Assembly (NCBI RefSeq): GCF_002735925.1
Contig: NZ_PEDL01000001.1
Span: 124,001-188,000 of the forward strand
Reading direction: 5' to 3'
Length of the DNA stretch: 64,000 nt
Source: Sporanaerobium hydrogeniformans
GTDB taxonomy: Bacteria; Bacillota; Clostridia; Lachnospirales; Cellulosilyticaceae
Position 1 is the stretch's first letter, and each line of letters opens with the position of its first letter. The notes under the pieces were generated by a model. The model was not told the origin of the DNA and did no database searches. It was given only the letters and a program-made list of their open reading frames with translations. Shown in pieces: positions 25,411-28,695 of the stretch. The position numbers were made by a program, and so were the translations under genes.

Positions 25411-26484
25411 ATGTTTGCGCAGTTAGAAGATTTAGTAACCAAATATGAAATGATTGGTGAGCAAATTAGCCAACCAGATATTATAGCAGATCAAGAGAGA
25501 TGGCAAAAACTCATGAAAGAGCATAGTGACTTAAAAGATATTGTAGAAAAATATCTTGAGTACAAGAAGACACTTGAAGCCATTGACGAGGGTCTAATGA
25601 TGTTAGAAGAAAATTTAGATGATGATTTTAGAGAACTTGTAAAAGAAGAACTTGCTGAAAATAAAAAGAAGGTTGATCCGCTTCAAAATGAAATAAAACT
25701 TCTTCTTTTACCTAAAGACCCTAATGATGAAAAGAATGTTATTGTAGAAATTCGTGGGGGTGCAGGTGGAGATGAAGCAGCTCTTTTTGCAGCAGACCTT
25801 TATCGTATGTACTGTTACTATGCAGAGAATAATGGCTGGAAAACAGAATTAATGTCTGTCAATGAAAGTGGTATTGGTGGTTTTAAGGAAGTTATCTTTA
25901 TGATCAAAGGCCAAGGTGCCTATTCCAAGCTAAAATATGAGAGTGGTGTACACCGTGTGCAACGTATTCCAGCAACAGAATCAGGTGGTCGTATCCATAC
26001 TTCTACTGTAACAGTAGCTATTATGCCAGAGGCAGAAGAGTTAGATGTAGAGCTTAATTTAAATGATGTACGTATTGATGTATTTAGAGCATCTGGAAAT
26101 GGTGGACAATGTGTTAATACGACAGATTCTGCCGTACGTGCGACACATATCCCTACTGGTTTAACTGTTTCTTGTCAAGATGAAAAGTCTCAACTTAAAA
26201 ATAAAGATAAAGCACTTAAAATTCTTCGTACTAGACTTTATGATATGGAGCAAGCAAAGCAACATGCAGAGCTTGCTGCTGAAAAAAAGAGTCAAGTAGG
26301 AACTGGTGATAGAAGTGAACGTATTCGTACGTATAACTTCCCACAAGGACGTGTAACAGACCATCGTGTAGGTCTTACCCTTCATAAGCTTGATCAAGTG
26401 TTAGACGGTGACCTAGAAGAAATTATTTCTACACTCACTACTGTCGATCAAACGGAAAAATTAAAGCTCGTTACAAATGAATAA
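25411..26484 (+). CDS. prfA: Peptide chain release factor 1
   Basis: Recognises UAA and UAG stop codons and triggers peptide release. The 357-residue protein has the stop-codon-reading PAT tripeptide (RIPATESGG) and the catalytic GGQ at residues 231-233 (GNGGQCVNT), which is the methylation target of PrmC encoded just upstream. GATGAGGTG precedes the ATG at 25411. It closes the rho-prfA cluster and is followed by a very long hairpin. RF2 would lack PAT, so the RF1 assignment is firm. Confidence 0.97.
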
Positions 26485-26498
26485 TTTATTTAAAAACT

Positions 26499-26560
26499 TC
26501 AAGTACACATAAAAAAGTAGCTAAAACCTAGGTTTTAGCTACCTTTTTATGTGTACTTGA
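26499..26560 (+). terminator. Very long hairpin after prfA
   Basis: A 62-nt inverted repeat with 31-bp arms and one mismatch, centred on CCTAGG at 26528-26533, with essentially no loop. The inner part (GTAGCTAAAAC/GTTTTAGCTAC followed by CTTTTT) alone would make a terminator. The outer arms continue without a break. Confidence 0.75.
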
Positions 26561-26643
26561 GAATAGTTGATACTTTAGAGAGTTCTGAAAGAAGGTTCCT
26601 GTCCATAAAATAGTAAAGAGAAGATATTAGGGAGTAGGAAAAG

Positions 26644-27939
26644 ATGGAGCCGTTATGTAGTCTTGTTTTAGGTATGTGTATAGGTGTGGAATATTTTTTA
26701 AGTTTTAGCCCAGGACCTTATAGTCGATTGTTAGTTATTATAAAATATAGCATGTTACTTCTCTTATGTCGTGAATATAGTAAGGAACGATTTTATCAAA
26801 AGATAAATGGTTGTATAAGAGGTGGAAAAAAATTAGGTTGGAGAGAGCGAATGATAGAAGGTCTATTGCTATTAGTGGGCTTAGCTGGTACATGGGGGGC
26901 TTCCAAGTTAAATGCTTTCCTCCAACAAAATATACGGCAAGGAGAGACATTAGGACCTTATGAAAGTTTATTTGTATTGGTATTAGTACCATCACTTGTT
27001 TATATGGGATTTTGTATAATGCGTCTTAGAGAATATAAAGGGTGGCTAGAAAAAAACAAGAAAAAGCTTATTTTAGGTGTTTATCTATTTGCTTGGTTAT
27101 GGTTTGGGTGTTTGTATTTTTATTTGGCACAGCAGGCACAAGGGGAATATTATACATTTACAGATACGGGTAAGCGTGATGCAGTTATTAGAGGGATGAT
27201 GCAAGAGAAAGCGTATTCGTCAGAGTTGGCATTTTATATGAATAATATAGTAAAAGAAGGAGGACAAGAAAAAAGTTTTTTAAGTCTAGCCCTACAAGAG
27301 AATATTATTTATTTTACAGAGGAACAAATAGGGGAAAGTTGGGGGCGATTTTACGAACAACGCCTTGTCGAGCAAGGTTATACCCACTTTTTACCACAAG
27401 GTGTTATTAAAAATTATATTTTAAACAGTAAAGCTATTCAAGATACTAACTATGAAATTAAATGGAAGAAATATTTAGGGAAAGAATATGTTGTTGTTAA
27501 GATAGCACTTTATAAATTAGCCTTTTTTGATGAAGAACGCTGCACCTACATGCTAGATGATAGTAGATACTATGCTTATTATAAAACACTTAAGCCAGAT
27601 AAAACCCTAATACTTATTTATACACCTGAGGAATATATTATTAACTATCACAATGAACGATTACGTCCTACACACTATTTAACGAGTGTGCTAAGAGACT
27701 CTCATACGTTACTTGATAGGGAAGCTGAGGAAATTAAAGAAGGGCTAGAAAGCTATGTCTACTATCCGTTAGAAGATTTTTTGTACTTTAGTGCAGTTAT
27801 TATTTCTACTTTAGGATTAGGTGATATTACCCCTAATGATAGCGTGGTAAGAGTATTTGTTATGTTAGAAACTTTATTCGGTGTTGTAATAATGGGGATT
27901 TATGTATCACTTATAGGAGCTTCTCAAAAAAAGGAATAA
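26644..27939 (+). CDS. Membrane protein with C-terminal ion-channel pore module
   Basis: Unusual 431-residue protein. The N-terminal half has about four hydrophobic segments (about 5-45, 72-90, 102-125 and 141-162). A polar domain of roughly 215 residues follows (about 163-377), then a pore helix, the filter-like sequence TLGLGDITP (389-397), and a final helix (about 400-424). Pore helix, filter and last helix match the two-transmembrane potassium channel module (Ion_trans_2), with Leu where Tyr or Phe is usual in TxGYGD. If the module is real, the large domain occupies the outside turret between first helix and pore. No ribosome site is very strong (GGGAGTAGG before the ATG). A zinc transporter gene follows by 27 bp. 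Ion selectivity cannot be told. Confidence 0.7.
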   Translation: MEPLCSLVLGMCIGVEYFLSFSPGPYSRLLVIIKYSMLLLLCREYSKERFYQKINGCIRGGKKLGWRERMIEGLLLLVGLAGTWGASKLNAFLQQNIRQGETLGPYESLFVLVLVPSLVYMGFCIMRLREYKGWLEKNKKKLILGVYLFAWLWFGCLYFYLAQQAQGEYYTFTDTGKRDAVIRGMMQEKAYSSELAFYMNNIVKEGGQEKSFLSLALQENIIYFTEEQIGESWGRFYEQRLVEQGYTHFLPQGVIKNYILNSKAIQDTNYEIKWKKYLGKEYVVVKIALYKLAFFDEERCTYMLDDSRYYAYYKTLKPDKTLILIYTPEEYIINYHNERLRPTHYLTSVLRDSHTLLDREAEEIKEGLESYVYYPLEDFLYFSAVIISTLGLGDITPNDSVVRVFVMLETLFGVVIMGIYVSLIGASQKKE

Positions 27940-27966: not shown

Positions 27967-28695
27967 ATGAGTATACAAATAGTTGGATTAATGGGGTGTA
28001 TAGCAGAAGGTCTAGGTCTTCTTGTAGGAATTATTGTGTTTTATCTTTTTAAGGTAACACATAAGCGGAGTATTGGTATGTTATTTGGAGGCACATCAGG
28101 ACTTATGATTGCCATTATCTGTTTTGATGTACTTCCAGAAGCACTTTCTAAAAATCGTATGGATTTAGTTTTATTAGGTACAATAATAGGAATACTAATA
28201 GGATTGCTACTAGATGAAATGATGCCTTATTTAGAAGAAAGAGTGGGAAACAAGGGAGGGAAATTAAGCACAGCTCTTGTACTTGTTATAGGTATTGCCA
28301 TACATAATATTCCGGAAGGATTTGCTTTAGGGGCATTAGCAGCAACAGGAACGGATGCAGTTAAGCAGTTTATTATTATTTTAGCACTTCATAGTATTCC
28401 AGAAGGTATTGCTGTTGCTATTCCTTTTAAGGCAGCTCAAGTTAACTTAAAGAAGATCTTTTTTATTCCCTTTATTTTAGGAAGTATTATGGGAATAGGT
28501 GTTATTTTAGGACATGTATTAAGTCACTCAAGTGAATCTTTTGTAGTATTGGCATTAGGTATCGCAACAGGAGTCATTCTCTATATTGTATGTGAAGAGC
28601 TTTTGCCTGAATCACGTAAAAGCTGGAATGGGCGAATGACAACAGTAGCAACTATTTTGGGTATTATTTTAGGCCTAGTACTACTAGGTAAATAA
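27967..28695 (+). CDS. ZIP family metal transporter
   Basis: Cytoplasmic-membrane metal-ion permease of the ZIP/ZupT type, 242 residues with about eight hydrophobic helices. The paired metal-binding motifs of helices IV and V are clear: HNIPEGFALG (about 115) and HSIPEGIAVA (about 140). GAGGGGGC precedes the ATG. It begins 27 bp after the channel-like gene and is followed by a DUF1540 gene 68 bp later. Likely substrates are zinc, iron or manganese; sequence alone does not decide. Confidence 0.92.
   Translation: MSIQIVGLMGCIAEGLGLLVGIIVFYLFKVTHKRSIGMLFGGTSGLMIAIICFDVLPEALSKNRMDLVLLGTIIGILIGLLLDEMMPYLEERVGNKGGKLSTALVLVIGIAIHNIPEGFALGALAATGTDAVKQFIIILALHSIPEGIAVAIPFKAAQVNLKKIFFIPFILGSIMGIGVILGHVLSHSSESFVVLALGIATGVILYIVCEELLPESRKSWNGRMTTVATILGIILGLVLLGK

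Follow-up and report, generated by a model that had tools for sequence, protein, structure and literature searches.

The window, a stretch of 64,000 nucleotides from the genome of Sporanaerobium hydrogeniformans, contains an intact reading frame for a protein of 431 amino acids whose C-terminal part is predicted to form the pore of a potassium channel. The features discussed below are as follows (window coordinates):

26517..26542, forward strand: terminator-like hairpin after prfA, found by pattern scan
26629..26634, forward strand: SD-like AGGGAG, 9 nt 5' of the ATG, read by eye from the sequence
26644..27939, forward strand: channel gene, 431 aa, an intact ORF with an Ion_trans_2 match
26647..27024, forward strand: four predicted N-terminal membrane helices, residues 2-127, from an AlphaFold2 model of low confidence
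27058..27132, forward strand: outer helix M1/S5, residues 139-163, from the homologue alignment and the homologue model on solved channels
27133..27759, forward strand: predicted extracellular turret domain, residues 164-372, conserved in homologues, with its fold taken from the homologue model
27769..27810, forward strand: pore helix YPLEDFLYFSAVIIS, residues 376-389, from the Ion_trans_2 match and the AlphaFold2 model
27808..27825, forward strand: selectivity filter T389-L-G-L-G-D394, from the sequence (TLGYGD in homologues)
27841..27921, forward strand: inner helix M2/S6, residues 400-426, from the alignment and the AlphaFold2 model
27967..28695, forward strand: ZIP-type transporter gene, 27 nt downstream of the channel gene, an ORF matching PF02535 at 2.1e-19

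The gene order is prfA, channel, ZIP, DUF1540. The first-pass annotation had named a ZIP transporter and a Cys-rich protein as neighbours, and the matches to PF02535 and DUF1540 (8.6e-21) confirm this. The hairpin follows the end of prfA at 26484, which makes it likely that the channel gene is transcribed separately from prfA; the pattern scan found two sites, versus 1.3 expected by shuffling. The ZIP gene is probably co-transcribed with the channel gene rather than being part of the channel. Nine of the other 23 family genomes have prfA directly next to the ZIP gene, with 82-139 bp between the match ends and no channel; the neighbours thus give no clue to the channel's function. The occurrence of the prfA-ZIP pair without the channel, or with other genes, indicates that the channel gene is accessory and occupies a site that holds other insertions as well, and this junction may be one that often takes up genes. 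At loci L058 and L059 (genomes G001 and G021), 7 and 4.6 kb of unrelated genes lie between prfA and ZIP. The Clostridium loci that encode homologues commonly have a gene that we take to be cysS upstream of the channel (9 of 14) and what is presumably an alaX-like gene downstream (7 of 14). A functional link through the neighbourhood was rejected because the neighbours differ between the window and Clostridium.

Codon use favours the frame of 26644-27939 over the other five, and it does so for codons 1-136 alone. Translation from an internal start (ATG 27004 or 27019) would yield a 2TM protein of about 306-311 aa resembling the homologues, and the N-terminal four-helix part, which is absent from every homologue, would not be made. 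However, from 26644 onwards the frame is open and looks coding, and the SD-like site lies there, whereas no such site is evident by eye upstream of either internal ATG, and the pattern of loop charges described below extends into the N-terminal part. We therefore consider an internal start very improbable.

The pore helix, TLGLGD filter and inner helix that the first-pass annotation had recognized are borne out by a match of Ion_trans_2 (PF07885) to residues 377-425 (E 2.7e-11; 43.6 bits against a cut-off of 22.5), the sole Ion_trans_2 match in a search of the whole genome at E 0.001. The homologues L087 and L098 score 48.9 and 43.8 bits with the same profile. The pore makes up the C-terminal 55 residues and is of the standard P-loop type. 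In the PDB it matches K+ channels best by sequence, with TOK1 first at 4.6e-6 over the pore only and at 6.4e-9 with the family profile. E409 and G413 of the inner helix are invariant in all 23 rows of the alignment, as are R403, also in the inner helix, and S353 and D358 at the end of the ectodomain. T389, G391, G393, D394, P397, R403, E409 and G413 are all kept in the window protein, and K+ selectivity of the predicted channel is read from the filter motif. The protein has a single Ion_trans_2 stretch, where a K2P channel has two pore domains per chain. About five residues follow M2, too few for a cytosolic RCK, cyclic-nucleotide or Kir-type domain.

The leucine in the filter had been called unusual, and locally it is rare. 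The filter tyrosine position in 30 Ion_trans_2 loci of a class sample holds Tyr in 27, Phe in two and Leu in one, the window protein; none of the 22 homologues has Leu there, and all 22 read TTLGYGD. Nevertheless, the claim was overstated, since GLG is found in the first pore of TOK1 and, according to the available excerpt of PMC8616229, figures among the K2P filter motifs.

The domain before the pore, put at about 215 residues in the first-pass annotation, does prove to be very large, with about 205-211 residues depending on the cuts. Helix 139-163/164 aligns with M1 of the homologues, so this domain is an M1-P (S5-P) turret; the insertion between M1 and the pore comprises 211 residues in the window protein and 197-203 in 14 homologues. 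The statement that no familiar potassium channel shows this order is correct about the order itself, but the plan is better described as an ordinary S1-S4 / S5-P-S6 arrangement with a huge S5-P turret. This class sample contains 35 Ion_trans_2 matches in 33 of 132 genomes, and 32 of these matches cover M1 (profile start 1-6) to M2 without interruption, over 69-89 residues. Late profile starts occur in the window protein (26) and a homologue (21), both of which are split, and in a 97-aa frame (30). The last (G528:C10:5743-5868, profile 30-71) is perhaps a truncated or short channel.

In global alignments of the window ectodomain with those of 14 homologues, Z ranged from 3.6 to 9.3 (300 shuffles each); the real score exceeded all shuffles for 13 of the 14, and a shuffle won for the remaining one. 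An 18-member profile gives 32.1 bits for the window M1 plus ectodomain. Without M1, the ectodomain reaches 11.9 bits with the profile of the other members, versus 10.3 for the best of 1000 shuffles. Because the alignments rise above shuffles, yet the score without M1 is only 11.9 bits, sequence comparison indicates a turret that is homologous to those of the relatives but has diverged strongly in the window protein. The ectodomain has no convincing sequence match in the PDB (best E 0.2 with the profile and 0.96 with the consensus). Pfam matches to DUF5659 (0.0015, in two of 19 members) and, for the consensus, to PNGaseA (0.035) were taken as chance, and no ligand-binding family was recognized in the PDB and Pfam searches.

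The membrane segments before the domain had been counted as four. Membrane helices do precede it, but the number differs: the low-confidence AlphaFold model has five helices (2-21, 26-60, 66-98, 105-137 and 139-164), and a plain hydropathy scan at 1.4 finds three segments (1-22, 103-126 and 142-160). The loops placed inside contain nine Lys and Arg residues in 42-70 and seven in 127-141, with none in the N-terminus 1-8; those placed outside contain none in 20-27 and one in 92-107. These charges fit an N-in six-helix topology with the domain outside. Residues 1-136 are absent from all 22 homologue rows, and residues 1-140 have no relatives in PDB or Pfam and one chance-level match (E 0.02) in the 24 genomes of the family. 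Among the relatives found, only the window protein thus has the four extra predicted N-terminal helices. The fourth of them carries one basic residue, not the spaced Arg/Lys of an S4, and Ion_trans (PF00520) scores 10.3 bits, below its cut-off of 25.

In a class sample of 391 genomes, a search with the whole protein matched eight at 1e-4: its own, four from one other family and three with pore-only matches. The four genomes of the other family align over approximately residues 137-429 (E 6.6e-21 to 5.0e-19; 27-31 % identity). Sampling 194 genomes of that family gave 23 with a match, 22 nearly full-length and one as a broken fragment, and the window protein shares about 21-30 % identity with the 22 homologues in the alignment. 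The homologues have 289-301 aa and consist of a short N-terminus, M1, about 200 residues, the pore helix, the filter and M2. The search that the first-pass annotation had proposed thus recovered a conserved domain order, M1-[~200 aa]-P-M2, with the filter motif in 22 of 22. Since order and motif are kept and the pore type is supported, neither outcome that the annotation had named as counting against it, a C-terminal segment that is no pore module or homologues lacking the motif, was found. L085 (genome G909), a 67-aa remnant of a homologue pore interrupted by TGA and likely a decayed copy, was excluded from the alignments; the near-duplicates L068, L069, L073 and L074 were excluded from alignment A3, and L051-L054 are repeats of genomes already counted.

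A second scan of genome contigs, with one restrictive peptide pattern that may miss more distant carriers, confirmed 14 of 25 stretches, and all 14 loci are titled Clostridium or Clostridiaceae; the named carriers include C. drakei, C. carboxidivorans, C. magnum, C. ljungdahlii and C. tyrobutyricum. A single-sequence scan of genome contigs gave 41 stretches, none of which was confirmed. Two of the 24 genomes of the window's own family match at 1e-3, its own and G023 (two short partial matches), and the protein is full-length in one of the 24. In the order sample, three of 392 genomes match at 1e-5, its own and two with pore-only matches, and the ectodomain profile finds only its own genome, both in the order sample (1 of 392) and in the phylum sample (1 of 398). 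The ectodomain is frequent in some Clostridium genera; given this distribution, transfer between the two groups and wide loss are both possible.

A mobile or viral origin of the channel gene was rejected after searches of plasmids, phages and viral contigs. With tblastn, the window protein matched nothing in plasmids and nothing in phages at 1e-2; at E up to 10, two pore-only records appeared. The homologue L087 had no plasmid match and, at E up to 1, matched 11 phage records, none of which spans 80 % of it. These include a 117-aa channel gene in phiK7A1 and a 235-aa protein of a Dulem virus in which the pore lies close after the last upstream helix. Scans of viral contigs gave 14 and 32 pattern stretches, none confirmed. 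PHROG 7872 matches residues 195-287 of L087 (E 7.9e-9), that is, the pore and about 45 residues before it; this phage family, whose function is unassigned, may show whether phages carry a form with a shorter turret.

The AlphaFold2 model of the C. drakei homologue, computed with 14 other rows, has a pLDDT of 80.6 and a pTM of 0.66, whereas the model of the window protein is poor (59.7 and 0.42). The homologue model places M1 at 3-42, the pore helix at 240-253 and M2 at 264-288. Its M1 and P-M2 superpose on SthK 8vtb (Z 11.1, 2.3 Å, 91 residues), GORK 9la7 (Z 11.0, 2.0 Å, 99 residues) and GsuK 4gx5 (Z 10.8, 2.0 Å, 92 residues), although according to the comparison tool's own note a helical Z below about 13 is not decisive alone; all three superpositions skip the ectodomain. 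The window model shows the same M1/P/M2 arrangement at low confidence. The modeled ectodomain contains helices 52-66, 74-85 and 112-125, strands 94-98 and 101-105, and long strands 130-142, 145-157 and 176-187 followed by more helices, which gives the order helix-helix-strand-strand-helix-three long strands. Foldseek searches with the whole homologue model return mostly pores (best E 0.05, none at or below 0.001; top probabilities 0.99-1.00). Four of the first 50 rows are non-channel, among them 3hx8, 2chc and 5u9o (probability 0.23-0.35, rmsd 11-15 Å), which we take to have the NTF2-like fold. ERF proteins reach a comparable probability (0.30-0.38) in a structure search of a viral library, and Pfam gives no support for an NTF2-like ectodomain; we treat this modeled resemblance as a lead only.

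Sequence and models place the protein and its homologues within the Ion_trans_2 kind of K+ channel, with a conserved but unusual architecture. They share the pore helix, the TxGxGD filter and the inner helix with prokaryotic members such as KcsA, NaK, SthK and GsuK, and the modeled M1 and M2 of the homologue superpose on the last two; they differ in that some 200 residues separate M1 from the pore helix and in having no cytosolic domain. In the available excerpt of PMC4436565, turrets measure 6-12 residues in bacterial channels such as KcsA and NaK and 6-60 residues across K+ channels, and the K2P insertion is described as likely the longest among potassium channels. K2P channels resemble the window family in carrying an extracellular M1-P1 insertion over the pore (excerpts of PMC4906011 and PMC4565861), a cap that, as of 2015, was absent from other solved channel structures according to the latter excerpt. 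However, the K2P insertion has about 60 residues, is helical and belongs to a chain with two pores, whereas that of the window protein has about 200, is predicted to be alpha/beta and precedes the one pore of its chain; the window turret is thus some three times as long.

Fungal TOK1, the best PDB sequence match, has the first pore TVGLGDILP but contains two pores per chain, seen as two matched stretches, and leaves the ectodomain unmatched. The six-helix K+ channels (Kv, plant GORK/SKOR/AKT1 and HCN) have the same order of helices, and the window model aligns on six-helix chains, in some cases over all six helices at an rmsd of 6-7 Å. The window protein differs from them in lacking an arginine-rich S4, in its giant S5-P linker and in N-terminal helices without sequence relatives. 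Eukaryotic four-repeat Cav and Nav channels also have long extracellular loops over the pore, which in T-type calcium channels reach about twice the K2P length; these loops are cysteine-rich (both in the excerpt of PMC4436565), whereas the ectodomains here contain 0-4 Cys and stand over a K+-type filter. A literature search, with subscription papers and preprints mostly outside its coverage, found no such channel.

From motifs and models, we estimate a probability of about three in four that the protein is a subunit of a homotetrameric P-loop K+ channel, or a K+-permeable cation channel, with a giant outer domain. The M1-P loops of P-loop channels face the outside. This rule for the class, together with the loop charges, would place four ectodomains of about 24 kDa over the mouth of the pore, where they may form a canopy over the filter with side openings through which ions reach it, an arrangement known on a far smaller scale from the K2P cap. 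Such a channel would let K+ flow down its gradient and contribute to setting the membrane potential. As there is no cytosolic regulator, any regulation would be exerted by the ectodomain, by the membrane or at the filter. The ectodomain may gate the pore, in response to a bound solute, an ion, a proton or a wall component; the canopy could serve for gating or sensing, or it could be a roof with a structural or protective role. The window protein would combine this canopy with a six-helix plan that lacks a charged S4, and its GLG filter might relax selectivity or alter filter gating. TOK1 and K2P channels have GLG in part of their four filter positions; by comparison with them, a channel with GLG in every subunit would be expected to conduct differently, but still to conduct.

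The channel may be a constitutive or filter-gated leak channel whose ectodomain senses nothing and only stabilizes the assembly or shields the mouth from blockers. We give this reading slightly less than even odds: no ligand-binding family is recognized in the ectodomain, and the role of the K2P cap outside the membrane is described as poorly understood and linked to dimerization and to shielding from blockers (excerpt of PMC4906011), but a 200-residue alpha/beta domain with conserved positions outside the membrane part appears, as an argument only, large for a spacer. Another reading is less likely than not: an undescribed class of K+ channels would extend across Clostridium in which a folded extracellular sensor of about 200 residues, possibly NTF2-like, is inserted in the turret and gates the pore from outside, and the window protein would be a six-helix derivative of it whose four filters all carry Leu.

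The window copy might also have lost or changed its function, conducting poorly, conducting another cation or serving as a non-conducting sensor, a change of which its GLG filter, extra helices and divergent ectodomain would be the marks. The leucine found in none of the homologues, the low identity to them and the full-length match in a single genome of the family agree with such a change; however, the frame is intact, codon use is normal, the conserved filter and inner-helix residues named above are kept, and GLG occurs in the filters of TOK1 and K2P channels. We judge a lost or changed function unlikely and prefer the reading as a channel subunit with a giant outer domain. If the turret of about 200 residues folds by itself, it would be a novel means of covering or controlling a K+ pore, and this in a minimal 2TM protein without a cytosolic regulator. 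If it senses something, these proteins would offer a simple bacterial system for studying how a signal from outside is relayed to the selectivity filter. The version in the window, a fusion with four added helices and a GLG filter, would be a natural variant for testing the roles of those parts.

A different channel was observed in the same family. Tandem pores in one chain are familiar mainly from the K2P and TOK channels of eukaryotes. Genome G023 encodes (L003:598-1992, forward strand) a protein of 464 aa with two Ion_trans_2 stretches and two P-loops per chain (TTTGFGDI and STNGFGDI), a bacterial tandem-pore channel.
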